Made by a program: the position numbers and the translations under genes. A stretch of 44,931 nucleotides of DNA from an uncultured beta proteobacterium (GTDB lineage Bacteria > Pseudomonadota > Gammaproteobacteria > Burkholderiales > Burkholderiaceae_C): assembly GCA_903876045.1 (NCBI GenBank), contig CAIQYP010000219.1, forward strand, positions 1 through 44,931, in the 5' to 3' direction. Below are positions 4,403 to 43,487 of this stretch, piece after piece; the stretch's first letter is position 1; every line of letters begins with the position of its first letter. Under the pieces are notes generated by a model that was not told the DNA's origin, ran no database searches, and saw only the letters and a program-made list of their open reading frames with translations.

Positions 4403-4875
4403 TTGACCTGAAACCTAGGTTGCCCAATCTCCTGCCCCTCTCCACTTGTTGCGTCTGTCTTGAACCAAGGCCCCTTCCCTCCACCGGAGTTACCCAGCTT
4501 CGTCAGTACTACGGACCTATCCACCACCCCACGAAGCCTGGCCTGTCTGCCACCGGCATCCAGTCATTGACCTGCAGCAGGGATGCTAACCAACTTAGCG
4601 ATAACACAAAAAGTACTGCTGAGTGGTGGTATTTCGTACTGTGCTTCCCGTCGATGGTGCGGAGATAAATCAATAAGCAAAATGTTGACCTGCATCAGGT
4701 TGTTTAACCATTGAGGTCATTGTCAGAATCTCATTGACATGAGATCCTGCTTGCTTGGGCCGCAAGTGCAGAACGGGATATCACTAAGTGGATTCGCACC
4801 GCTTTTGAAAACATCAAGAACACTTAGGCCAGGTGACGATTTTGATTCCCTAGGTAGGGTCCCACTTTGCACACG
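4403..4875. other. Intergenic region without a convincing gene
   Basis: No gene is supported in these 473 bases. A plus-strand open frame at 4399-4668 contains LPSTGVTQLRQYYGPIHHPT. Similar strings recur, as I remember them, in dispersed spurious predicted proteins of many bacteria, so the stretch may be a relic of a conserved non-coding or mobile sequence rather than a gene. Downstream sequence (4670-4875) is AT-richer and shows no clear promoter consensus before the GGDEF-EAL gene; a CCTAGGTAGGG stretch lies about 15 bases upstream of its ATG. Confidence 0.35.
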
Positions 4876-7680
4876 ATGAAAAGAATAATTCTCGCCAGTT
4901 TTCAGTCTAGCTCGCTAAAGACACGAGTTACTCTGTTCACGTTGGCGATTTTCATTAGCAGCATATGGACCTTGGCCATTTATGCGAGTCATACATTGCG
5001 CCAGGACATGCAACGACTTCTCGGCGAGCAACAATTCTCGTCGGTTTCACTCCTTGCAAAAGAAGTCAACCAGCAGTTGAACGAGCGTTTTAGTGCCCTG
5101 AAAGTTGTCGCTGGGCAACTTGCGCCTGCCGTGATCGCTGACGTCGGTGCGGCACAAAGTTTTCTGGATTCAAATCTGACTTTGCAAGGGCATTTCAACG
5201 GCGGAATTACGATTTTGCGCCAAGACGGCACCGCGATCGCGGATGTTCCTCGGACGGCTGGACGCGTCGGTATTAACTTTGGTGATACGGAGGTCACCGC
5301 TTCGGCGCTTCGGGGCCTGGCCAACATCAGCCGTCCGATGATGGGCAAGTCGACCAAAGCACCACTGATCGTGATGTCGGTCCCGATTCATGCGTCCGAC
5401 GGCCACGTGATTGGTGCCATATCAGGCGTGATCAATCTGGGCCAGCCCAACTTTCTGGATTTGGTGACTGACAGCAGATACGGCAAGACAGGAGGGTATC
5501 TACTTGATGCACCGCAGTACCGGGTCATTGTCACTGCGACTGACAAGTCCCGCGTCATGGCACCGCTGCCGCCCCCAGGCATCAATCCCCTGATCGATCG
5601 TTTTGTTGATGGCTATGACGGCTACATCGTGGGAAACAGTCCCTTAGGGGTGGAGGTTCTGGCATCAGCCAAACGCGTGCCAGTCACTGGTTGGTACTTG
5701 GTGGCCCAACTGCCCACTAACGAGGCATTTGCACCGATCGTTGACATGCAGAAACGGATGTTGGCGGCAACCATCCTTCTTACTTCGTTGGCAGCCGGAT
5801 TGACATGGTGGATGTTAAGACGCGAACTCTCGCCCCTGTTCACAGCGGTAAAGGCGCTCGCATCTGCTGCAGGAGGCAGCGAGCGTGTGGAACCCTTACC
5901 TATCTCTCGGCAAGATGAAATTGGTGAGCTCATCGCGAGCTTCAACCGATTACTTCAAAAACTAGACGATCGCGAATCCGCCCTGCGTGACAGCGAGGAG
6001 CGACATCGAACTCTCGTGGAATGGTCGCCAGAGGCCATCGCTGTTTATCGTAAAGGTCGACTGGTCTATGCTAATCCAGTAGCCATCAAGTTGTTCGGCT
6101 CGCAAGGTCGCGGCGAGCTATTGGGCAGGGAAGTAATGGAGTTCGTGCATCCGGACTTCCGACAGAAAGTGGCTGCAGTGATGGAGTCCGCAACCGGGGC
6201 CAATCTCATGCCCACAGCCCTCGAGGGTAAATTCTGCAAATTGGATGGAACCGCAATGGACTTGGAGATTCAAAGTCGATTGATCATCTTTGACGGTTCG
6301 AGCGGTATCTATTTGGCGATGCGCGATGTTACGGCCAGCAAGCAGGCAAAACGCGAAATTGAAACGCTTGCCTTCTTCGATACGCTCACTGGTTTGCCCA
6401 ATCGGCGACTTCTGATTGACCGACTGGAACAAGCCCTTGCGGCCAGTTCTCGCCACAATCGCGATGGCGCACTACTCTTTATCGACTTAGACAACTTTAA
6501 AAACCTGAACGACACGTTAGGGCACGATCAAGGCGATATTTTGTTGCAACAGGTGGGCCGCCGCTTGAGCGAATGTATGCGAGAGGGCGATACTGTCGCC
6601 CGCTTTGGCGGCGATGAATTTGTAGTAATTCTGGAAGATCTCAGCGAAAACGCCGAGGACGCCGCTGCGCAAGCTGAAGTTGTAGGAGAAAAGATTCGCA
6701 CGTCTCTGGGACAAACCTATCAACTTCCTGCGCGTGAGTACCACACCACGCCCAGTATTGGAATAACACTTTTCAGTGACCATGAGGAAACGGTCGCGGA
6801 GTTGCTGCGTCGCGCCGATTTGGCGATGTACCAAGCAAAGGAAGCTGGTCGCAACATGCTCAGATTCTTTGATCCAGCCATGCAAGCCGTCATTTCGGCG
6901 CGCCAGGACCTTCAAAACGATCTCTACACGGGGATCGCCGAGAATCAGTTCTGTCTTTACTACCAGCCTCAAGTCACAGGGGAGCAGCACTTGATCGGTG
7001 CCGAAGCACTTCTGCGTTGGCAGCATCCGCTAAAAGGGAATATCCCCCCAAGCGACTTCATTGCGCTGGCGGAGACATCAGGACTGATTGTTCCGATTGG
7101 TAAATGGGTGCTTGAGACGGCTTGTCTCCAGTTAGCGACATGGGCCATTCAGGAAGGAAGGGATCACTTGACCATTTCCGTGAACGTTAGCGCCCGTCAA
7201 TTTCATCAGGAAGACTTTGTTGACATGGTTATTGATGTCCTTAAAACAACCGGGGCGAGACCTCATCGACTCAAGTTGGAGTTGACGGAGAGCCTGCTGG
7301 CCACTGATGTTGCTAGCCTCATCCACAAGATGAATGAGCTTAAGTCAGTTGGGGTGGGATTTTCAATGGACGATTTCGGTACAGGCTACTCTTCGCTTTC
7401 CTATTTGAAGCTGCTTCCTCTGGATCAACTCAAGATAGATCAGAGCTTTGTCAGAGACATACTGATAGACCCCAACGATGCTGCGATCGCCAAAATGGTC
7501 ATCGTATTGGCAGAGAGCTTGGGGTTGGCTGTAATAGCTGAGGGCGTAGAAACACAAGCGCAGAGGCGCGTTCTAGCTGATCAAGGTTGCGATACTTACC
7601 AAGGTTATCTTTTCGGCCGACCAGTGCCCATCGGTGAGTTTGAAACCATCTGTGGCTCGCTGCAGACCATGATATTTTGA
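4876..7680 (+). CDS. Membrane dCache-HAMP-PAS-GGDEF-EAL protein (c-di-GMP turnover)
   Basis: About 934 residues from the ATG at 4876; a TTG three codons earlier is also possible. Architecture: transmembrane helix at about 16-38, a periplasmic double-Cache sensor to about 290, a second helix (TILLTSLAAGLTWWML), HAMP, PAS at about 378-490, GGDEF and EAL. The diguanylate cyclase site is intact (RFGGDEFVV) and is preceded by REGD five residues upstream, matching the RxxD inhibitory site. The phosphodiesterase domain has GAEALLRWQHP, LTESLL, DDFGTGYSS, KIDQSF and EGVET, so both activities look possible. The ligand of the Cache domain cannot be read from sequence. It is a clear paralogue of the gene at 38027-40855 (shared LGEQQFS and NPYGKTGGY/RYGKTGGY segments). 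No terminator is visible after it. Confidence 0.94.
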   Translation: MKRIILASFQSSSLKTRVTLFTLAIFISSIWTLAIYASHTLRQDMQRLLGEQQFSSVSLLAKEVNQQLNERFSALKVVAGQLAPAVIADVGAAQSFLDSNLTLQGHFNGGITILRQDGTAIADVPRTAGRVGINFGDTEVTASALRGLANISRPMMGKSTKAPLIVMSVPIHASDGHVIGAISGVINLGQPNFLDLVTDSRYGKTGGYLLDAPQYRVIVTATDKSRVMAPLPPPGINPLIDRFVDGYDGYIVGNSPLGVEVLASAKRVPVTGWYLVAQLPTNEAFAPIVDMQKRMLAATILLTSLAAGLTWWMLRRELSPLFTAVKALASAAGGSERVEPLPISRQDEIGELIASFNRLLQKLDDRESALRDSEERHRTLVEWSPEAIAVYRKGRLVYANPVAIKLFGSQGRGELLGREVMEFVHPDFRQKVAAVMESATGANLMPTALEGKFCKLDGTAMDLEIQSRLIIFDGSSGIYLAMRDVTASKQAKREIETLAFFDTLTGLPNRRLLIDRLEQALAASSRHNRDGALLFIDLDNFKNLNDTLGHDQGDILLQQVGRRLSECMREGDTVARFGGDEFVVILEDLSENAEDAAAQAEVVGEKIRTSLGQTYQLPAREYHTTPSIGITLFSDHEETVAELLRRADLAMYQAKEAGRNMLRFFDPAMQAVISARQDLQNDLYTGIAENQFCLYYQPQVTGEQHLIGAEALLRWQHPLKGNIPPSDFIALAETSGLIVPIGKWVLETACLQLATWAIQEGRDHLTISVNVSARQFHQEDFVDMVIDVLKTTGARPHRLKLELTESLLATDVASLIHKMNELKSVGVGFSMDDFGTGYSSLSYLKLLPLDQLKIDQSFVRDILIDPNDAAIAKMVIVLAESLGLAVIAEGVETQAQRRVLADQGCDTYQGYLFGRPVPIGEFETICGSLQTMIF

Positions 7681-7945
7681 AGAGAAGGGTGCAACCATTG
7701 TCCAGTTATGAATTTCTCAGGATGTATTTAGAATGGATGTCTGAACCAAAAAGCACGATTTCACCTTTGTCTCGTTTAACGTATGGCATCGATAGTTGAA
7801 GCATTCTTGAATAGTAGTTATGTGGCACTCAACGGCTTACGAATTAGAAGGTGAATTGTTGCTGCAAATATCCGGGGTAAACAAAGTCATCGATCTGAAT
7901 CCGCGTCGAAGTAGATAAATCAACAGGCACTGAAGTAGAAAATCC

Positions 7946-8515
7946 ATGTTTTGGTTCGGAAAGAATAAGACCCAAAGTAGAGAACCGGTGGTGGCAAGCC
8001 GGGTTTCGGTAGTCACGCCCGCCGCATCGGTTGTCCATCGCGATCTAGTGAGGATGAAACTTAGAAAAGTTCTGAAAGCGTATGGCGTGCCTCCCCATTG
8101 GGTTACCTGCGAGGTGGTGCCGGTGGAAGCATCAGCGGGGATACTGCGCTTTCAGCTAATTCTTACTATGACAAAGTGGAATGCGCAGTTGTTGCGGTAC
8201 ACCTTGACGCTGCAACAAAAATTGCTGCTATCTATTGAAGAATATCTGCCGAAATCTGATCGGACTGAATTTAGGGTGAGTTGGACGTTTGCTCCGTCGT
8301 GCAATCCCCCAGAGCTGGAAATTACCAATTCCGCCAGTTGGGTGGAGTCCGAACCAGCTGGTGATGGACTGAGCAAACTATTCGATCGCAGAAAGGCACC
8401 TCGCTCACCAAGTCGTTCGAGCCAGTTACCTGGGCGCGGTGAATTGAAGGGACACGACAATGGCGATCAGGAAGATGAAGATTTTGCCAAGACTGCCATC
8501 TCCCCCCTTCGTTAG
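7946..8515 (+). CDS. Hypothetical protein, unrecognised
   Basis: A 189-residue frame with no family I recognise. The N-terminus is MFWFGKNK, followed by a low-complexity Val/Ala/Ser linker. A central mixed segment (about 35-135) has several hydrophobic beta-like stretches (ILRFQLILTM, ELEITNSASW). The C-terminal 50 residues are charged and probably disordered, ending in an acidic DNGDQEDEDF run. There is no signal peptide or transmembrane helix. The upstream ribosome site is weak. It lies on the same strand between the GGDEF-EAL gene and the roadblock/ODP cassette, 265 bases after the former and 356 before the latter. It might belong to the cassette, but nothing in the sequence proves that. 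The base composition is slightly lower in GC than the housekeeping genes. Confidence 0.55.
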   Translation: MFWFGKNKTQSREPVVASRVSVVTPAASVVHRDLVRMKLRKVLKAYGVPPHWVTCEVVPVEASAGILRFQLILTMTKWNAQLLRYTLTLQQKLLLSIEEYLPKSDRTEFRVSWTFAPSCNPPELEITNSASWVESEPAGDGLSKLFDRRKAPRSPSRSSQLPGRGELKGHDNGDQEDEDFAKTAISPLR

Positions 8516-8871
8516 GCCGATCCCGCACCCGCAAACCTGCGCATCACCATGGCAATGGCATTGCTGGTGCATTTGATAGCACCAGTCGCGATTCGGGAAA
8601 TGGCTGACAGAACAATATTTCGAAACATTTAGTTACGTGCTGATTCGGTATCCCCGGGCATACCAATTCACAATGTAAAAAAATGCTGGATTCTGTAACC
8701 CTCTCGGAATAAGTTACGGTTATCCTTGTTGAACATCCAAGGGCATCTCGCAAGGCGAGTAGCTCTCGTTCATGCGAGGTCTTTTGTGAATGTTCAGCTC
8801 AAAATCGGTCGGATTCTTCAGCACGGGCAAAGCGCAGCTTGGTCGGGCCACGACCGCCGGGCTAGTGGCCT
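8516..8871. other. Intergenic leader of the roadblock/ODP cassette
   Basis: I find no convincing gene in these 356 bases. A short hairpin (CTCGC-aag-GCGAG) lies at 8747-8759 without a T-run. A plus-strand 33-codon frame at 8790-8891 (starting MFSSKSVGFF) overlaps the start of the next gene out of frame. It may be a small upstream frame coupled to that gene or chance; it resembles no family I know. The promoter of the cassette probably lies here, but no strong -35/-10 pair stands out. Confidence 0.3.
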
Positions 8872-9888
8872 ATGACGGACAAGCTGGATAGCCGGCCTAT
8901 ACCGGTTCTAACAAATTTGGTTAGTCCAATTTCTGGAGCACCAAAGTACAAAGTTCTGCTCGTTCACGAGTCGCACCACTTACTGGAAATTATGCAGCGC
9001 AGCATGATGGGTGACTTTGAAGTGCGCACCGCGAGCAATGCCGAAGACGGATGGCACGCAATGCTTACCGATCAAACTATTCGTGGCGTCGCCGCGAGCC
9101 TGGCGGTACTGGAAATTGATGGCTACGGATTGCTCCAGCGCATTCGGCGCTCCAAAGTGTCGCGCATCAACAGTGCACCGGTTTTGGTTATCGCGGATGA
9201 CGATAAATCTATTGGCGACCTTGCAACATCCATTGGAGCTTCGGGGTTCACGCCGCTCGATGATCTTGGGGGAATGAAGGATCGGCTTAAGCGATTGATC
9301 GAACCAGACACCTTGGTGAAGTCGGCTGAAATCGTTCGCGCCCAAACGGCCAAGGCGGTAGATCTGCCCCTTCCCATGGATGAGGTCTCGCAAATAATGC
9401 CTGAGCTTGCTGGCTTTCGTGTCAAGCTTGTTTCACGCGCTCACAAGTCCGCATCCAAATCCCTGATTTCCCCTTCTACCTCAGTTAACCCGTCCGATCC
9501 CATCCCAGAAAAGGAGAACTCCATGTCACGACTTGACAGTTTGAACAAAGTACTTAAGGCTCTGCAAAGCTCTTCACCTGGCGTTGAAGCAAGCGCACTG
9601 ATTTCAACAGACGGCCTGATGATTGCCAGTGTATTGGCCAAAGAAATGGATGAGACCCGAGTGGCGGCTATGACAGCTACGCTGCTGAATCTTGGCACGC
9701 GTGCTGCGACCGAATTGCGTCGTGGCGAAGTCTCTGAAGTCATTGTCCGCGGAGACCAGGGCTATGCCGTGATGCTAAGCGCCGGACGCGGCGCCTTGCT
9801 GCTTGTGCTGGCAAATGAAGGTACCCCGCTGGGCTTGATATTTTTTGACATGCGTGAGGCGGTCAAGGAAATCAAAAACGTTCTGTGA
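8872..9888 (+). CDS. Pseudo-receiver fused to a roadblock/LC7 domain
   Basis: The full frame is 338 residues. Residues about 25-145 follow a response-regulator receiver pattern (KVLLVHES, then LEIDGYGLLQRIR, then PVLVIADDD). The N-terminal acidic pair is replaced by His-Glu-Ser, the phospho-acceptor Asp cannot be aligned, and the conserved Lys-Pro is missing, so it is a non-phosphorylatable pseudo-receiver. A Ser/Pro-rich linker (about 180-217) leads to a roadblock/LC7 (MglB-like) domain over the last 121 residues, with ALISTDGLMIASVL and GYAVMLSAGRGALLLVLA. A perfect AAGGAG and ATG inside the frame (9511-9525) would yield the roadblock domain alone, so two products are likely. Roadblock domains dimerise and usually regulate small GTPases; no MglA-like GTPase is present in the window. 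It heads a gene set with ODP, OmpA-like and second roadblock genes. Confidence 0.8.
   Translation: MTDKLDSRPIPVLTNLVSPISGAPKYKVLLVHESHHLLEIMQRSMMGDFEVRTASNAEDGWHAMLTDQTIRGVAASLAVLEIDGYGLLQRIRRSKVSRINSAPVLVIADDDKSIGDLATSIGASGFTPLDDLGGMKDRLKRLIEPDTLVKSAEIVRAQTAKAVDLPLPMDEVSQIMPELAGFRVKLVSRAHKSASKSLISPSTSVNPSDPIPEKENSMSRLDSLNKVLKALQSSSPGVEASALISTDGLMIASVLAKEMDETRVAAMTATLLNLGTRAATELRRGEVSEVIVRGDQGYAVMLSAGRGALLLVLANEGTPLGLIFFDMREAVKEIKNVL
9511..9525 (+). promoter_or_regulatory. Internal ribosome binding site and start for the free roadblock domain
   Basis: AAGGAG at 9511-9516 stands six bases before an in-frame ATG at 9523 inside the pseudo-receiver/roadblock gene. It is among the best Shine-Dalgarno sequences in this cassette. 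Translation from it gives a 121-residue protein (9523-9888) of normal length for a single-domain roadblock/LC7 protein. The upstream linker encoded just before it is Ser/Pro-rich. Either the gene encodes two nested proteins, or an ancestral free roadblock gene was fused to the receiver when an intervening stop was lost. Confidence 0.75.
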
Positions 9889-9957
9889 TTGTTGGCAATT
9901 GAGGCGATGAAATGACGCCACGACAATTTTCCCCAACAACGACACGAGGAGCGATGC

Positions 9958-10719
9958 ATGCCCAATACGATTTTGTATGACGATGGCACTCACAGAAATG
10001 TGATGCTGGAAGATTTCGATGCTGGTGGATTCGCCGTTCAAGCCAATCAGCATGTGATCGTGCATGGCAAGGAAGGCATGATTCTGGATCCTGGTGGCCA
10101 TAAAGTTTACAACCGCGTTCTAACGGCCACTTTCGGCATTTTGGGTGGTGCCCAGTTGCGCCATATCTTCCTGTCTCATCAAGACCCGGATATTGTGGCC
10201 GCCGTCAACGGCTGGTTGATGACCACCGATGCCGACGCCCATTTGTCACAACTCTGGACTCGCTTTGTGGCGCATTTTGGCTTGGACCACTTGGTTGAAG
10301 ATCGACTTAAGGCCATCCCGGATTCCGGAAAGTTGCTGAATTTGGGCGGCGTCAATCTACCCGTAATTCCGGCACACTTCCTGCACAGCGAGGGCAACTT
10401 TCAGCTCTATGATCCAGTTTCCAAGATTCTCTATACAGGTGACTTGGGCGCCTCTCTCGGTGCACCCTACCTTCAAGTGGAAGACTTCGACCAGCACCTG
10501 CGTTACATGGAAGGCTTTCACCGCCGAATCATGGCGTCCAATCGAGTGATGGTGGCCTGGGCCAACATGGTCAGTCCGCTAGACATCGAGATGATCGTGC
10601 CGCAGCATGGCGCATATTTCAAGGGCAAAGACATGGTCGACCGATTCATTCGCTGGTGCTCCGGTTTGCAGTGTGGAGTAGATCTTATTGTGCCAACATT
10701 CAAATTGCCCGTTGCTTGA
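9958..10719 (+). CDS. ODP-type metallo-beta-lactamase-fold diiron protein
   Basis: This 253-residue protein belongs to the ODP/flavodiiron-like branch of the MBL fold. A complete ligand set can be read: His74, Asp76 and Asp78 in SHQDPD, His143 in HFLHSEGN, Asp162 in YTGDLGA and His217 in PQHGAYF. The acidic residue between the first ligands is the signature of diiron, oxygen- or NO-binding members rather than zinc hydrolases. There is no flavodoxin or rubredoxin domain, so it is unlikely to be a stand-alone oxygen or NO reductase. Related free-standing ODP proteins act as oxygen and iron sensors in spirochaete chemotaxis. GAGGAG precedes the ATG at 9958; a second ATG at 9954 is out of frame. 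It follows the roadblock gene by 69 bases and precedes the OmpA-like gene by 12, so it is probably co-transcribed. Sensing is inferred. Confidence 0.85.
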   Translation: MPNTILYDDGTHRNVMLEDFDAGGFAVQANQHVIVHGKEGMILDPGGHKVYNRVLTATFGILGGAQLRHIFLSHQDPDIVAAVNGWLMTTDADAHLSQLWTRFVAHFGLDHLVEDRLKAIPDSGKLLNLGGVNLPVIPAHFLHSEGNFQLYDPVSKILYTGDLGASLGAPYLQVEDFDQHLRYMEGFHRRIMASNRVMVAWANMVSPLDIEMIVPQHGAYFKGKDMVDRFIRWCSGLQCGVDLIVPTFKLPVA

Positions 10720-10731
10720 AAGTGTTTCGGT

Positions 10732-11352
10732 ATGAATGAAATAGCGCGGTCAGATGGGGTTCCCGAGCACCCGGTCTTGGGAGAAAACTTGCATGGTGGT
10801 CTCCTTGTGGCGGTTATTGTGGTCGGCGTCCTCATGGCCGCTGCGGCAACTTGGTTGGCTCTAGACGATACGCAGGCAAATCCTACTTCCACTATCTCGC
10901 AAGCTTTACCAACAAATATACCAAATACGCCTGCAACTGTTACGGCAATGCCGGCCAATGAAACTCAATCGTCAAACAATGCAAAGCCGACGTGTCCGGA
11001 AATAGTATCGATATTCTTTCCGATAGGCGCCACTGTGCCACAGGCCCGCAGCGACACGTCTGAGCTTGATTCGATCGTTAATTGGGCCAAGTTGAACCCG
11101 GAAGCCAAGATCGCCGTGCAAGGATATGCCGATATGGTGGGACTGGACCAGACGAACCTCTTGCTGAGTTACGAGCGTGCAAAAACTGTTTCGTCGTTCT
11201 TGGTCAGTCGTGGCGTAGTGCTGCAGCAGATTCAAATTGCGGCAGCTGGAAGTCACTCGCTGGTTGAGGGCTCACCTGGTGATGCGCAGGTTAATCGGCG
11301 CGTCACCATTCAAATTAGCAACCCCGAAGTTTGTATAACTACAACCAAATGA
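10732..11352 (+). CDS. Membrane-anchored OmpA/MotB-like protein
   Basis: This 206-residue protein has a single transmembrane helix near residues 22-45 (GGLLVAVIVVGVLMAAAATWLAL) and a Pro/Thr/Asn-rich linker. A periplasmic OmpA-C domain covers about 85-195, with VSIFFPIGATVPQ, IAVQGYADMVGLDQTN, LSYERAKTVSSFLVSRGV and the terminal NRRVTIQI. The peptidoglycan-binding Asp and Arg positions appear present (GYAD and NRRV). With no cleavable signal and a short cytoplasmic N-terminus, it should be an inner-membrane protein that reaches the cell wall, topologically like MotB, though it lacks the MotB channel Asp in the helix. It is 12 bases after the ODP gene and five before the membrane roadblock gene. 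Confidence 0.85.
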   Translation: MNEIARSDGVPEHPVLGENLHGGLLVAVIVVGVLMAAAATWLALDDTQANPTSTISQALPTNIPNTPATVTAMPANETQSSNNAKPTCPEIVSIFFPIGATVPQARSDTSELDSIVNWAKLNPEAKIAVQGYADMVGLDQTNLLLSYERAKTVSSFLVSRGVVLQQIQIAAAGSHSLVEGSPGDAQVNRRVTIQISNPEVCITTTK

Positions 11353-11356
11353 AACA

Positions 11357-12010
11357 ATGATTTTAATGATTTCACTATTGGGACTGGGTGCAGCTTTGCT
11401 GCTATTGATCGCAGGCTATCTGCTGGGTGCGCGCGAAGGTAACAAGGCTCGCGAGAGCCTTAGGCTTTTGAATCGGGGCTTTGCCAAAGAGATTGTTCAA
11501 CTGCGCATCAAGGTCGCAACGCCCAAAGACAACAAAGATAATAACGAGACTCTTCGGGCTGCTTTGCAGGAAATATTGTCGCCCCTAGTGACTCGTGAAA
11601 GGCTTTCCTATGAAATGTCGCGTTTGGAAAGTGGCGCGGGCCAACAAAGAAACCTGGCCTCGGTACTGGATCAAATGGCTGACAAAGGGAATTTTTCTTC
11701 CGTACTGCTGAGCGATGCGCAGGGCTGGCGAATTGCGGCCAGCACCGCCACAACGGACCCAGAAAGGCTAGGTGCTACGGCGTCGCTTCTGCTATTGCTG
11801 GCCGACCGCATTGCGCGTGACGGATCACCGGCACCTCTGTCTTTGATGTTATACGACACTGGCAATACCACGACGCTGTGTCGTTTGTTCTCTGTTAACA
11901 ATCAGCGCATGACCTTGACGGTGGTAGCGAACGGTTCAGAACTCACCCCGGCTGCTATTGATCCCGCATTGGTCAAGCTCAATGCCATGTTGATCAGCAG
12001 CGAATCGTGA
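11357..12010 (+). CDS. Membrane-anchored roadblock-like protein
   Basis: A 217-residue protein with an N-terminal transmembrane helix (about residues 3-24, LLGLGAALLLLIAGYLLG). A charged, probably helical linker (25-95) follows, then a C-terminal roadblock/LC7-like domain at about 100-215, with ASVLDQMADKGNFSSVLLSDAQGWRI, a Leu-rich helix (ASLLLLLADRI) and LCRLFSVNNQRMTLTVVANGSE. The domain call rests on fold-like pattern and context and is weaker than for the upstream gene. The helix would hold the roadblock domain at the cytoplasmic face of the membrane. It starts five bases after the OmpA-like stop and ends the cassette. A membrane-bound roadblock together with a soluble one suggests heterodimers that could recruit a cytoplasmic partner; this is inference. 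Confidence 0.72.
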   Translation: MILMISLLGLGAALLLLIAGYLLGAREGNKARESLRLLNRGFAKEIVQLRIKVATPKDNKDNNETLRAALQEILSPLVTRERLSYEMSRLESGAGQQRNLASVLDQMADKGNFSSVLLSDAQGWRIAASTATTDPERLGATASLLLLLADRIARDGSPAPLSLMLYDTGNTTTLCRLFSVNNQRMTLTVVANGSELTPAAIDPALVKLNAMLISSES

Positions 12011-12232
12011 ATTTCCGTTGAGCACTGTTGTGACTCGAAGGGCAGCCAGGTGTGCAGCGCCGCATGTGCTGTGGGCCTGACTTAGAGATGGACCCCGCGA
12101 AGGACCGGAAATGGTACCTGACCGGACCGTGGTTGGAAGCCGTCAACTGACTCCTGACTGTCCAAAGCGTAATTCCCTAGTGCGTCACGTCAAAGTCAAG
12201 CGCAACGTTGATTGATTTTGAACCTAACTGTG

Positions 12233-38026: not shown

Positions 38027-40855
38027 CTAGTCTTCCGGAAGGCTGTATTTGCTGGCACGCCGCACATAAGCTTCAAAGTCGGGCAACGCCAGCGGGCGAC
38101 TGAAGAAATAGCCCTGGTAGGCGTGGCAGTCCAGATGCGCCAGAAAGTCAGCCTGCGCCTGCAGCTCCACGCCTTCAGCAATCACCGACAGCCCCATGCT
38201 CTCGGCCAGCACCACCACCATCTTGGCAATGGCCGCGTCGTTGGGGTCGGTGACGATGTTGCGCACATAGCCCTGGTCGATCTTGAGCTGGTCCAGCGGC
38301 AGGCGCTTCAGGTAGGCCAGCGACGAATAACCGGTGCCAAAGTCATCCAGCGAGAAGGCCACGCCATGGGCCCTGAGCGTGCCCATCCGGGTGATGACCG
38401 CCTCTACGTCGTCCACCAGCATGCTCTCGGTCAGCTCCAGCTTGAGGTGCTTGGGGTTGGCCCGGGTACGTGCCAGCGTGTTCAGTACGTTGTCCACAAA
38501 ATCGCGCTGTTTGAACTGACGCGCACTCACATTCACCGCCATCGTGAGGTGTGCGAACGCCGGGTCAGCGGCCCACGCTGCCAACTGGGCACAGGCGGTC
38601 TCCAGAACCCATTGGCCTATGGGCAGAATCAGACCGTTTTCTTCTGCCTGCGGGATGAACTCAGCCGGCGACACCATGCCGCGCTGCGCATGTTGCCAGC
38701 GCACCAGCGCCTCCGCCCCGGTGATGCGCCCGGCGCCCACCACCTGAGGCTGGTAGTGCAGCAGGAATTGCCGCTGTTGCACTGCTTCACGCAAATCTCC
38801 TTCCAGCGCCGCATGGGCAGAGACCTCGGCCTGCATCCGGGCATCAAAAAAGCGCAGCGTGTTGCGTCCGGCTGCCTTGGCCTGGAACATGGCCAGCTCG
38901 GCGCGCTGGAGCGGTTGCTCGGGGCCTTCGAGGATCACTCCGCCAAACAAGCTGACACCAATGCTGGGCGTGCTGTGGTGGGCACCGTGGCCGAGGGTGA
39001 AGTCTTGCTCAAATGCTGCAAGAACGTTGCCGGCCACGATCTCGGCCTGGGTTGCGGCTTCCAGGTCGTCCCGGCTCAGGTCTTCCAGCATCACCACAAA
39101 CTCATCACTGCCCAGGTGTGCCAGGGTGTCGCCCTCACGGATGCAGGTTTTGAGGCGCTGCGCCACCTGCACCAGCAGCAGGTCACCCTGGTGGTGCCCC
39201 AGCGTGTCGTTGAGGGTTTTGAAGTTGTCCAGGTCCACAAACAGCAGGGCATTCTTGTGCGTGTGGCGAATGCTGGCGTGCAGCGCCTGTTCCAGCCGGT
39301 CCATCAGCAGGCGCCGGTTGGGCAAATGGGTCAGCGGGTCATAAAAGGCCAGCGTGTCAATTTGAGACTGGGCGTCGATGCGCTCGGTGACATCGCTGAA
39401 TACCAACACCACGCCCACGATGTCGCCCGCAGCGTTGCGGATCGGGGCGGCATTGTCATCAATCTGGTACTCCTGCCCGTCTTTGGCCAGCAACAGCGTG
39501 TGGTTGGCCAGGCCCACCACCTGGCCGTTGGCCATCACCAGTTGCACCGGGTCGCTCACGGGTTCGAGGGTCAGGGCGTTGACGATGCGAAACACATCGG
39601 TCAGCGGGCGGCCCAATGCATCGGCCAGGGACCAGGCTGTCAAGCGCTCGGCGGTGGGGTTCATGCGCGTGATCAAGCCGTCGGCATCGGTGGCAATAAC
39701 GGCATCGCCAATCGAATGCAGGGTAATGGCCAGGTTTTGCTGACTGTCCATCAGCGCCGTCTCACGTTGCGTCCAGCTGGCCAGGATTCGGTTGAAGCCG
39801 CCGATCAGGTGGCCCATTTCATCCAGGCGCCTGGCGGGCAACGGCGTGGCCATCTGGTTGGAATCGGCCAGTGCAGCCATCGCATCCGCAGTGGCCGCCA
39901 GCGGGGACAGTTGGCGCTTCAAAATCCACCAGGTCAGCACGCCGGTCAGAAGGGTCAGCAGTAGCGTGGCCCAGAGCAGGTGCTGCCACAGGTCTTGCAG
40001 GGGTGAAAAGGCTTCGTCGGTCGGTAGCGTGGCCAGCAGATACCACCCCGCCGCCGCAATACCTTTGCCCGAAACCAGCATTTCCACACCCTTTGGATTG
40101 GGTGCAACCGCAGAGCCCTCATAGCCATTGGCAAATCTGTCAACCCACGGGTTGATGCCCGCGGCCGGCAGGGGCTGCATGACACGACTCTTGTCGGTGG
40201 CGGTGACAACCAGACGGGCCCGCGCTGCGATCAACACATAGCCGCCTGTCTTGCCATAGGGGTTCTGGGCAATCTTGTCCAGAAAACTGGGCATGCCCAG
40301 GTCGACCACCCCGACGATGGCGCCAATCACCTTGCCGCGGGTGTCGCGCACCGGCACGCCCATGCAGAAAATGGGGGTTTTCAATTGCTTGCCCATGACC
40401 GGCAGGCCCATGGCCGATTTGCCCTCTGTCAGCGCGGCCGCCATGTAATCACTGTCCATGTAATTGATGCCGACACGCTGTGCCGAGAGTGGCACTTCGG
40501 CCATAACCGTGCCGTCGGTGCCGGCCACCATGACACCGCCGTTGAACAGCAGTTGCAAAATGGGGCGCTGATCCAGTCGGGCTTGCACGGCAGCCGGACG
40601 GCCCAGCATGACTGCATCCATTTCTTTGGCTAGGGTTTCCAGCGCTTGCAGGCGCTCGGTCAGGTTGTCATTGACATCATTGGCAACCACCGTCACTACC
40701 GAGAACTGCTGCTCGCCCAGCACACGCTGCATATCCTCTTTCAGCATGCGGCTCGTGTAGAGCGAGAGTGCACCGATGCCCAGCACAAACACCGCAAGCG
40801 TAAAAGCCGTGGCCCGCGTTCTCAGCGAGTTCCAGGGGGAGACTTCTCGGTTCAT
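38027..40855 (-). CDS. Membrane dCache-HAMP-PAS-GGDEF(GSDEF)-EAL protein
   Basis: A 942-residue paralogue of the protein at 4876-7680 with the same order: transmembrane helix (about 12-33), periplasmic dCache domain, second helix (LLWATLLLTLLTGVLTWWIL), HAMP, PAS at about 370-490, GGDEF and EAL. The cyclase motif reads HLGSDEFVV, so the second Gly is Ser, although the RxxD (REGD) site five residues upstream is kept. The EAL domain is complete (GAEALVRWQHAQ, LTESML, DDFGTGYSS, KIDQGYV, EGVEL). Cyclase activity is therefore doubtful and phosphodiesterase activity likely. Its ATG overlaps the stop of the upstream GGDEF-EAL gene by four bases. Confidence 0.93.
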   Translation of the reverse strand: MNREVSPWNSLRTRATAFTLAVFVLGIGALSLYTSRMLKEDMQRVLGEQQFSVVTVVANDVNDNLTERLQALETLAKEMDAVMLGRPAAVQARLDQRPILQLLFNGGVMVAGTDGTVMAEVPLSAQRVGINYMDSDYMAAALTEGKSAMGLPVMGKQLKTPIFCMGVPVRDTRGKVIGAIVGVVDLGMPSFLDKIAQNPYGKTGGYVLIAARARLVVTATDKSRVMQPLPAAGINPWVDRFANGYEGSAVAPNPKGVEMLVSGKGIAAAGWYLLATLPTDEAFSPLQDLWQHLLWATLLLTLLTGVLTWWILKRQLSPLAATADAMAALADSNQMATPLPARRLDEMGHLIGGFNRILASWTQRETALMDSQQNLAITLHSIGDAVIATDADGLITRMNPTAERLTAWSLADALGRPLTDVFRIVNALTLEPVSDPVQLVMANGQVVGLANHTLLLAKDGQEYQIDDNAAPIRNAAGDIVGVVLVFSDVTERIDAQSQIDTLAFYDPLTHLPNRRLLMDRLEQALHASIRHTHKNALLFVDLDNFKTLNDTLGHHQGDLLLVQVAQRLKTCIREGDTLAHLGSDEFVVMLEDLSRDDLEAATQAEIVAGNVLAAFEQDFTLGHGAHHSTPSIGVSLFGGVILEGPEQPLQRAELAMFQAKAAGRNTLRFFDARMQAEVSAHAALEGDLREAVQQRQFLLHYQPQVVGAGRITGAEALVRWQHAQRGMVSPAEFIPQAEENGLILPIGQWVLETACAQLAAWAADPAFAHLTMAVNVSARQFKQRDFVDNVLNTLARTRANPKHLKLELTESMLVDDVEAVITRMGTLRAHGVAFSLDDFGTGYSSLAYLKRLPLDQLKIDQGYVRNIVTDPNDAAIAKMVVVLAESMGLSVIAEGVELQAQADFLAHLDCHAYQGYFFSRPLALPDFEAYVRRASKYSLPED

Positions 40856-43172: not shown

Positions 43173-43487
43173 ATGCAGTTCGATGTTTTTGAAAACCCCA
43201 GCCCACGCATGCGCGATGTCTACCCCTTTGTGGTGGACGTGCAGAGTGAATTGCTTAGCTCGCTTGCCACGCGCATGGTGGTGCCGCTAGCCGTCACGGC
43301 CCTCGATGCAAAAGACCTGCCACGCCGACTGTGCCCGATCATCATGGTGAACAACACGCCGTTGATGCTGGTGCCGTTTGAAGCGGCGCCATTGGACAAG
43401 CGATTGCTGAAGACAGGTGTTACTTCTGTCCGGGACCGATCTCACGAGATCGTCGCGGCAATGGACTCGGTGTTAAGCGGCATCTGA
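43173..43487 (+). CDS. ccdB: CcdB-family toxin
   Basis: A 104-residue CcdB toxin, a family that traps DNA gyrase. Family features: [29 protein letters not shown] at the start, TRMVVPLAV, the [20 protein letters not shown] core, and the C-terminal SGI, where F-plasmid CcdB has Trp-Gly-Ile (the gyrase-binding end). The Trp is replaced by Ser, as in several chromosomal relatives, so potency against gyrase is uncertain. The TGA stop overlaps the first base of the right 13-bp repeat. Codon use does not differ obviously from the neighbours. Confidence 0.9.

Follow-up and report, generated by a model that had tools for sequence, protein, structure and literature searches.

The window analyzed here is a 44,931-nucleotide stretch from an uncultured beta proteobacterium (contig CAIQYP010000219.1 of assembly GCA_903876045.1; order Burkholderiales, phylum Pseudomonadota), and it carries a cassette of four same-strand genes for two roadblock proteins, a di-iron protein of the ODP type and an OmpA-domain protein. 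An original prediction, made from the DNA letters, had proposed these genes as an oxygen- or redox-sensing scaffold, and the four open reading frames (ORFs) on which it was built were present exactly as described. In the following list, TM is transmembrane and MBL is metallo-beta-lactamase.

8872-9888, + strand: ORF 1, (pseudo-receiver)-roadblock protein (ORF list and Pfam)
8872..9522, + strand: ORF 1, N-terminal pseudo-receiver (degenerate receiver domain) and linker (sub-cutoff Pfam match, PDB CheY2, alignment)
9523..9888, + strand: Roadblock/LC7 domain of ORF 1, 121 aa (Robl_LC7, 64.4 bits for this part alone; PDB profile search)
9958..10719, + strand: ODP-type di-iron MBL-fold protein, 253 aa (Pfam PF19583, 230.7 bits; PDB 6qrq; ligands)
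10732..11352, + strand: OmpA-domain protein, 206 aa, N-terminal TM helix, linker and OmpA domain (Pfam PF00691, 46.6 bits)
11357..12010, + strand: ORF 4, predicted membrane-tethered roadblock, 217 aa, TM helix, coiled coil and C-terminal roadblock fold (AlphaFold2, Foldseek, profile)

Since the gaps between the genes are only 69, 12 and 4 bases, the four genes likely form one operon, and 356 bases separate them from the next ORF upstream. Loci are given L numbers and genomes G numbers below, G000 being the window's own genome.

Folds and conserved residues of the four proteins

ORF 1 as a whole matched the Pfam roadblock family Robl_LC7 at 61.6 bits (cutoff 23), and a profile of its soluble roadblock matched 7f8m (E 6.4e-39), CvnB5 (9.9e-17) and MglB (9.3e-4) in the PDB; by the Pfam score and the MglB match, it has the MglB-type roadblock that characterizes MglA/MglB systems. 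The N-terminal part gave a receiver match (Response_reg) of 19.4 bits, under the cutoff of 30.2, and matched PDB CheY2 with an E of 0.0069. Aligned with seven other receivers, this part has serine in place of the phosphorylated aspartate and His-Glu in place of the acid pair, and it has lost the lysine, indicating that this domain is a pseudo-receiver that has lost its phosphorylation residues, as had been claimed for it. Descent of the pseudo-receiver from a Myxococcota receiver-DUF4388 protein was considered and not adopted, the domain being by eye nearer to the receivers of GGDEF response regulators (L081, L082). The AlphaFold2 model of ORF 1 was unusable (mean predicted local distance difference test, pLDDT, of 41) and was left out of the argument.

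An in-frame internal ATG lies at 9523 in ORF 1, preceded by a Shine-Dalgarno-like AAGGAG (positions 9508-9525, AAGGAGAACTCCATG), at the point where the stand-alone roadblocks of many relatives begin. Because of this start and its ribosome-binding motif, two products of ORF 1, with and without the pseudo-receiver, are possible. AGGAG likewise precedes the roadblock start in L092 and L093, and L097 has no methionine at the corresponding position and is a true fusion. In L093 (5263-9589), a single ODP gene is surrounded by three roadblock genes.

The second protein is matched in the PDB by an oxygen-binding di-iron protein (6qrq, E 7.6e-67) and also by 6qnm. All six iron ligands named in the original prediction (His74, Asp76, Asp78, His143, Asp162 and His217) are present, and each is invariant in every row that covers its position in a 70-row alignment (1 to 6 gaps per position).

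The third protein has a single N-terminal TM segment and a C-terminal OmpA domain. Its earlier description as MotB-like stands for this topology and falls short at the level of family, as the 25 NCBIfam models among the matches listed, of OmpA, Pal and MotB types, were every one under cutoff. The best MotB model among them scored 33.5 bits against a cutoff of 250, which does not identify a MotB stator protein, and no MotA family was found among the seven proteins scanned at 4867-12010. In an alignment of 13 sequences, Arg149 and Cys88 are invariant and Asp134 and Cys201 nearly so; Asp134 and Arg149 are presumably the peptidoglycan-binding pair. The two cysteines (codons at 10993-10995 and 11332-11334), conserved in the cassette family, flank the OmpA domain, and a periplasmic Cys88-Cys201 disulfide is possible from their placement.

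The fourth protein scored 18.0 bits against Robl_LC7, under the cutoff of 23, and its fold was assessed by structure prediction. The AlphaFold2 model (pLDDT 89.6, predicted TM-score 0.70) contains a long TM and coiled-coil helix region followed by a complete roadblock fold, with predicted elements H97-110, E113-120, E125-128, H135-154, E162-166, E171-180, E183-192 and H198-216 (alpha-beta-beta-alpha-beta-beta-beta-alpha). Foldseek gave Myxococcus xanthus MglB (6hjm) as the best match, with an E of 7.6e-6 and a TM-score of 0.71 by target length; LAMTOR2 chains reached 0.72-0.74 (5y3a_B, 0.74) and a Ragulator chain 0.77. In a profile comparison with solved roadblocks, the best match was 7f8f (E 6.9e-5), followed by 9jue (0.0019) and LAMTOR2 (about 0.01-0.06). 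The profile, and the alignment on which the model was built, hold the same 18 sequences, 14 cassette proteins and four untethered Chloroflexota roadblocks, and hence not ORF 4 orthologues alone. These predictions support the roadblock fold that had been suggested for ORF 4, whose absence the modelling could have revealed. Because an Arg/Lys-rich stretch follows the N-terminal TM helix, the roadblock domain should be cytoplasmic. Together with the OmpA domain, the TM segments of the third and fourth proteins argue for the membrane and cell-wall complex originally envisaged.

Recurrence of the gene set and exchange of its putative sensor

In the window's family, ODP was found in 54 of 150 genomes. 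None of the 29 best-scoring same-family ODP loci besides the window's own matched the other three genes within flanks of up to 1.5 kb, and the tethered roadblock was matched at E <= 0.001 in two genomes, strongly in G000 and weakly in one other. Conservation across the Comamonadaceae, which had been anticipated, thus fails, a strong fourth gene being confined to one of the 150 family genomes. Among 20 places taken from a roadblock search of 300 genomes of the order, the full set of four, arranged as in the window, was found only at L063; the other 19 showed no OmpA match and no full tethered-roadblock match. L063 lies in G164, a single-contig genome listed as 100% complete, its ODP is 67% identical to that of the window, and an AAA ATPase replaces the pseudo-receiver. 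Across 398 genomes of the phylum, a strong tethered roadblock was found only in G000 and G164, and 19 others gave partial matches scoring 33 bits or less (best six candidates or fewer scored per genome).

A genome scan seeded with the ODPs of the window and G164 returned 32 loci, with Proteobacteria, Myxococcota and Chloroflexota among them, and all four genes were present in 14 (L092-L095, L097-L102, L106, L109, L110 and L118). Two further loci are interrupted by contig ends: L107 has three genes before it ends, with a piece of the fourth gene at the end of another contig, and L096 starts inside the roadblock and continues with ODP and then other genes, with the OmpA and tethered-roadblock genes together on another contig (L179). 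Six of the 32 are Chloroflexota loci with kinase, GTPase, roadblock and ODP. Two others, from Gammaproteobacteria metagenome-assembled genomes (MAGs), are tandem ODP genes with no roadblock matches (L119, 4868-6524; L120, 6739-8462).

The reverse test ran the tethered-roadblock profile against 188 genomes of the Myxococcota, the phylum of G455 (the L118 genome, Polyangiaceae). Twelve genomes matched at E <= 1e-10 and ten at 2e-37 or better, two of these ten being the genomes of L118 and L109. At all eight new strong matches (L169-L176), genes for a soluble roadblock, a DUF4388-like protein (homologue of those in L104 and L100), an OmpA protein and a tethered roadblock occur consecutively, with ODP between the roadblock and the DUF4388-like protein in five and a protoglobin there in three; no cassette surrounds the weak matches, L177 and L178. 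The genes thus co-occur in other genomes, including distant lineages, a result that could have gone against the prediction. In L172 (1-8379), kinase, roadblock, ODP and DUF4388-like genes form a tandem pair of units, with OmpA and tethered-roadblock genes after the second unit only.

In the ODP tree, a clade of 26 rows (support 97/94) includes all 16 cassette rows. Its Pseudomonadota rows cluster (93/91, not a starred branch) amid Myxococcota rows; because of this nesting, the cassette has apparently spread by horizontal transfer, and its distribution is patchy and rare. Within the clade, the ODP of G164 groups with that of a Nitrosomonas MAG. Of the 29 same-family loci, 27 fall across the midpoint root, and L005 and L008 fall outside the cassette clade, in its half of the tree but on a long branch (1.93).

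The protoglobin occupies the ODP position of otherwise matching cassettes in L171, L175 and L176, and no ODP was found within the fetched 16 kb. These protoglobins score 98-106 bits in Pfam (cutoff 25) and share an invariant histidine, in a region that we take to hold the proximal heme ligand; against solved structures, the family matches a globin-coupled histidine kinase and HemAT. Elsewhere, a protoglobin adjoins ODP (L102, L114, L115, L118, L121 and L122; L102, L115, L118 and L121 by Pfam scan), and both sensors occur in L102, L118 and four of the six Chloroflexota loci. This swap of di-iron for heme at one operon slot is the strongest functional pointer in the data; because a heme protoglobin fills the ODP position in three relatives, it suggests that the slot holds a gas sensor, in line with the sensor role that had been proposed.

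GTPases, neighbouring genes and known roadblock systems

We searched 18 whole genomes with a profile of eight GTPases, four from Chloroflexota and four from Burkholderiales operons, all of which we take to be of the MglA type. Five of the eight Pseudomonadota cassette genomes gave no match at E <= 0.01, and the other three matched only partially, at E 1e-4 to 8e-4, within reading frames 966-1012 aa long that are probably translation factors, two of these three genomes being near copies. With three queries, no MglA-type GTPase was found in G000, and in G164 none apart from one 24-residue match at E 0.65. The original observation that no MglA-type GTPase accompanies the window's roadblocks thus holds for the linked genes and for the genome. 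Strong matches were present in all seven Myxococcota genomes tested (from the 32 loci) and in three of three controls, and no match lay inside the fetched Myxococcota cassette loci.

All six Chloroflexota loci, one of them scanned with Pfam, have a GTPase in an operon with roadblock and ODP, the fullest (L115) reading receiver-kinase, GTPase, roadblock, DUF4388-roadblock, protoglobin, ODP, receiver-roadblock. In the Burkholderiales operons, the genes run (ODP), TPR, receiver-like, GTPase, roadblock-like, roadblock, with ODP in 5 of the 17 GTPase-holding loci fetched; in L064, L066, L068, L069 and L071, ODP heads operons with TPR, receiver-like, GTPase and two roadblock-like proteins. Because the Chloroflexota and Burkholderiales operons combine GTPase, roadblock and gas sensor, the gene content suggests that the cassette derives from an older system of that composition and has lost the GTPase.

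We take the Burkholderiales operons with a GTPase, a receiver-like and two roadblock-like proteins to be Group 3 MglA systems, which share the roadblock with the cassette; the best soluble-roadblock matches of the order after G164 (mostly 43-49% identity) lie in such operons. Unlike the cassette, they have a GTPase, and no OmpA or tethered-roadblock match was found in the 17 loci. Group 3 systems are described from beta- and gamma-Proteobacteria in the passages covered of a 2014 census of MglA systems (PMC4316618), and the mgl locus of Snodgrassella in those of PMC11112851. The word 'metallo' does not occur in the main text of either paper, and the covered passages of the census make no mention of ODP at the operon head. 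Group 1 Rup GTPase systems, as portrayed in the same passages, share with the cassette an inner-membrane OmpA-domain protein and nearby cyclic di-GMP or kinase output genes; the OmpA protein of the cassette is a TM protein with a C-terminal OmpA domain, as in Rup systems, and none of the 71 small Rup sequences covered is coupled to MglB (PMC4316618).

In the conservons of Actinomycetota, the roadblock CvnB occurs with a histidine kinase, according to the part of PMC13343842 consulted. The soluble roadblock profile of the cassette matches CvnB5, and many Myxococcota cassettes share the conservon-like pairing of kinase and roadblock. Unlike conservons, the window's genome gave no CvnD-type GTPase (no CvnD query was used), and ODP or protoglobin, OmpA and tethered roadblock are additional. 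No CvnA-like kinase was found by the roadblock among the seven proteins scanned in the window or, with Myxococcota and Chloroflexota kinase queries, in the other Pseudomonadota cassettes. The ODP of Treponema denticola, a chemotaxis oxygen sensor in the portion seen of PMC7666581, is of the same named protein type as the window's; it is linked to a soluble homologue of a methyl-accepting chemotaxis protein (MCP), whereas the window's ODP is linked to roadblocks and OmpA, and no MCP was found among the seven proteins. A search of the open-access literature, excluding supplements, found no paper combining 'flavodiiron' and 'roadblock' and, among the results listed, no description of such a cassette. 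Ragulator/LAMTOR is a membrane-tethered roadblock platform whose LAMTOR2 chains the fold of ORF 4 resembles. Unlike the cassette, it is eukaryotic, and it serves Rag GTPases; nothing points to shared descent.

A PAS-HisKA kinase (homologous to those of L104 and L099) lies upstream of the roadblock in L100, L102, L104, L109-L111, L113, L116, L118, L171-L174 and L180, all Myxococcota, and downstream in L099, L169 and L170; it was not found in L098, L101, L175 or L176. The DUF4388 label of the other recurrent neighbour is weak: the cutoff is 25 bits, four cassette proteins scored 24.6, 20.4, 19.3 and 25.4, and no match was reported for L100:4666-6048. Neither a PAS kinase nor a DUF4388-like homologue was found beside L063 or L092-L097 (L092 and L096 being short), and neither a kinase nor a DUF4388-like protein among the seven proteins at 4867-12010. 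Fused before the soluble roadblock are an AAA ATPase in L063 and L097 and the pseudo-receiver in the window. The upstream GGDEF-EAL gene, originally suggested as the output, was not adopted as a partner: it clusters with proteins of 21 other loci, of which the members scanned (not all) are histidine kinases, and a shared sensor domain likely explains the grouping. A second large protein at 38030-40855 has an N-terminal start very similar to that of the GGDEF-EAL protein (4867-7677), the first identified by Pfam and the second compared by eye.

Five of five matching stretches from congeners have the flanking genes, identified by eye as folK, pcnB and hda, and lack the cassette genes, and no cassette DNA was found among the matches listed in 12 same-genus genomes (best 14 candidates per genome scored). 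A plasmid origin was not supported, with nine plasmid-collection matches for ODP, all below 60% identity, and none for the fourth gene. Base composition was dropped as a sign of transfer: the guanine-plus-cytosine fraction is 0.52-0.53 in the cassette genes against 0.60-0.62 in three genes to the right, and the low values continue leftwards through the contig beyond the cassette. A dispersed repeat of about 91 bp (12068-12158) starts 58 bases past the cassette, with at least four further matches in the same genome (C572, C420, C260, C210) and no unusual fold (DNA folding z-score 0.76). An ORF at 43173-43484 resembles, by eye, the CcdB toxin of a toxin-antitoxin pair.

A candidate roadblock platform with a gas sensor

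Given the gene set, the predicted folds, the iron ligands, the exchange of sensors and the lack of any convincing MglA-type GTPase, all shown by the analysis, we hold with modest confidence that the cassette is a gas- or redox-sensing scaffold, known from its genes and predicted folds, in which a roadblock platform would have a gas sensor, and not a GTPase, as its switch; we see in it a variant of MglA/MglB-type signalling that does without a GTPase. The tethered and soluble roadblocks would pair, giving a platform on the cytoplasmic side of the inner membrane that the OmpA protein would couple to peptidoglycan, and ODP, or the protoglobin, would dock on this platform. Binding of O2 or reduction (or nitric oxide, NO, or iron loading) may change the state of ODP, and the platform would relay the change. 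In Myxococcota, the signal would probably be received by the adjacent PAS histidine kinase and DUF4388-like protein. Because no such neighbour was found beside the Pseudomonadota cassettes, their output would probably be the domain fused before the soluble roadblock (pseudo-receiver or AAA ATPase) or an unlinked protein. Complex formation, gas binding, the signal path and the output are thus steps that we infer, and the whole would work like an MglB- or Ragulator-type roadblock platform with the GTPase replaced as switch. Of the model first proposed, the gene set, the fold of ORF 4, the missing GTPase and the sensor slot carry over, and the GGDEF-EAL output and the Comamonadaceae-wide conservation do not. 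A broader claim, which we offer as a possibility inclining to doubt, is that the cassette represents an undescribed machine, a wall-anchored, tethered roadblock platform with an exchangeable ODP or protoglobin switch that spread horizontally from Myxococcota-like donors into GTPase-free Pseudomonadota.

Several observations weigh against the gas-switched scaffold. The 14 loci are partly non-independent, L094/L095 and L109/L110 being near copies and L098/L099 coming from one genome. Roadblock and ODP occur without OmpA or a full tethered roadblock nearby in L104, L105 (which has a weak fourth-gene match), L111, L113 (a short contig) and L116, and ODP without a nearby roadblock in L103, L108 and L112. 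Genome-wide, the tethered-roadblock profile gave nothing at E <= 0.001 for L103, L104, L111, L112 and L113 and weak matches for L105 (1.3e-9) and L116 (4.8e-6); matches were strong for L096, L107 and L108, the one for L108 belonging to a complete cassette on a separate contig (L180). Because five genomes of the ODP clade show no fourth gene and two show weak ones, the four-gene set is recurrent within the clade but not obligatory. The lack of a convincing MglA-type GTPase in all eight Pseudomonadota cassette genomes comes mostly from MAGs (G164 being one contig) and from MglA-type queries only, and ODP is joined to a GTPase in the Burkholderiales and Chloroflexota operons, so that the ancestral system may have been GTPase-dependent. 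ODP itself could instead sense iron or NO, or act as an enzyme.

The GTPase-bearing relatives also bear on an alternative that we consider unlikely, in which the cassette is an orphan GTPase-activating module whose roadblocks act on a GTPase encoded elsewhere, with ODP tuning that activity by its redox state. It would fit the retention of the GTPase in the operon by all six Chloroflexota loci with roadblock and ODP, the pairing of a GTPase with two roadblock-like proteins in the Burkholderiales operons (ODP in 5 of 17 loci) and the MglA-type GTPases of all seven Myxococcota cassette genomes tested; it is harder to reconcile with the eight Pseudomonadota genomes, single-contig G164 included, in which no convincing GTPase was found, and with the Myxococcota cassette loci fetched, none of which contained a GTPase match. 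We regard as more improbable still an envelope or polarity module, in which OmpA and the tethered roadblock would form a wall scaffold and ODP would be an accompanying detoxifying or metabolic enzyme and no sensor. The conserved TM helix and OmpA-domain Asp/Arg would suit such a module, as would the action of roadblock/MglB proteins in polarity and motility (PMC11112851 and PMC4316618, in the parts covered), but the protoglobin that replaces ODP at the same position, and the PAS kinases and receivers that recur beside the cassette in Myxococcota, point to sensing. That the four genes are unrelated chance neighbours in a MAG contig has next to no probability: the set is rare in the window's family and absent from the matching stretch of five of five congeners, but the same set, mostly in the same order, was recovered up to Myxococcota distance from two different seed genes, and none of the 29 same-family ODP loci shows it. 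In our view, the conservation counts refute this reading.

Bacterial roadblocks are known mainly as GTPase partners. If the gas-switched scaffold is real, a roadblock pair persisting without a detectable MglA-type GTPase would be a new wiring of gas sensing to the cell envelope, and ODP, known mainly from chemotaxis, would be tied to roadblock signalling. The use of ODP or protoglobin at one slot is a natural experiment, and the series from Chloroflexota (with GTPase) through Myxococcota (with kinase) to Pseudomonadota (neither beside the cassette) makes the role of an orphan roadblock directly testable.

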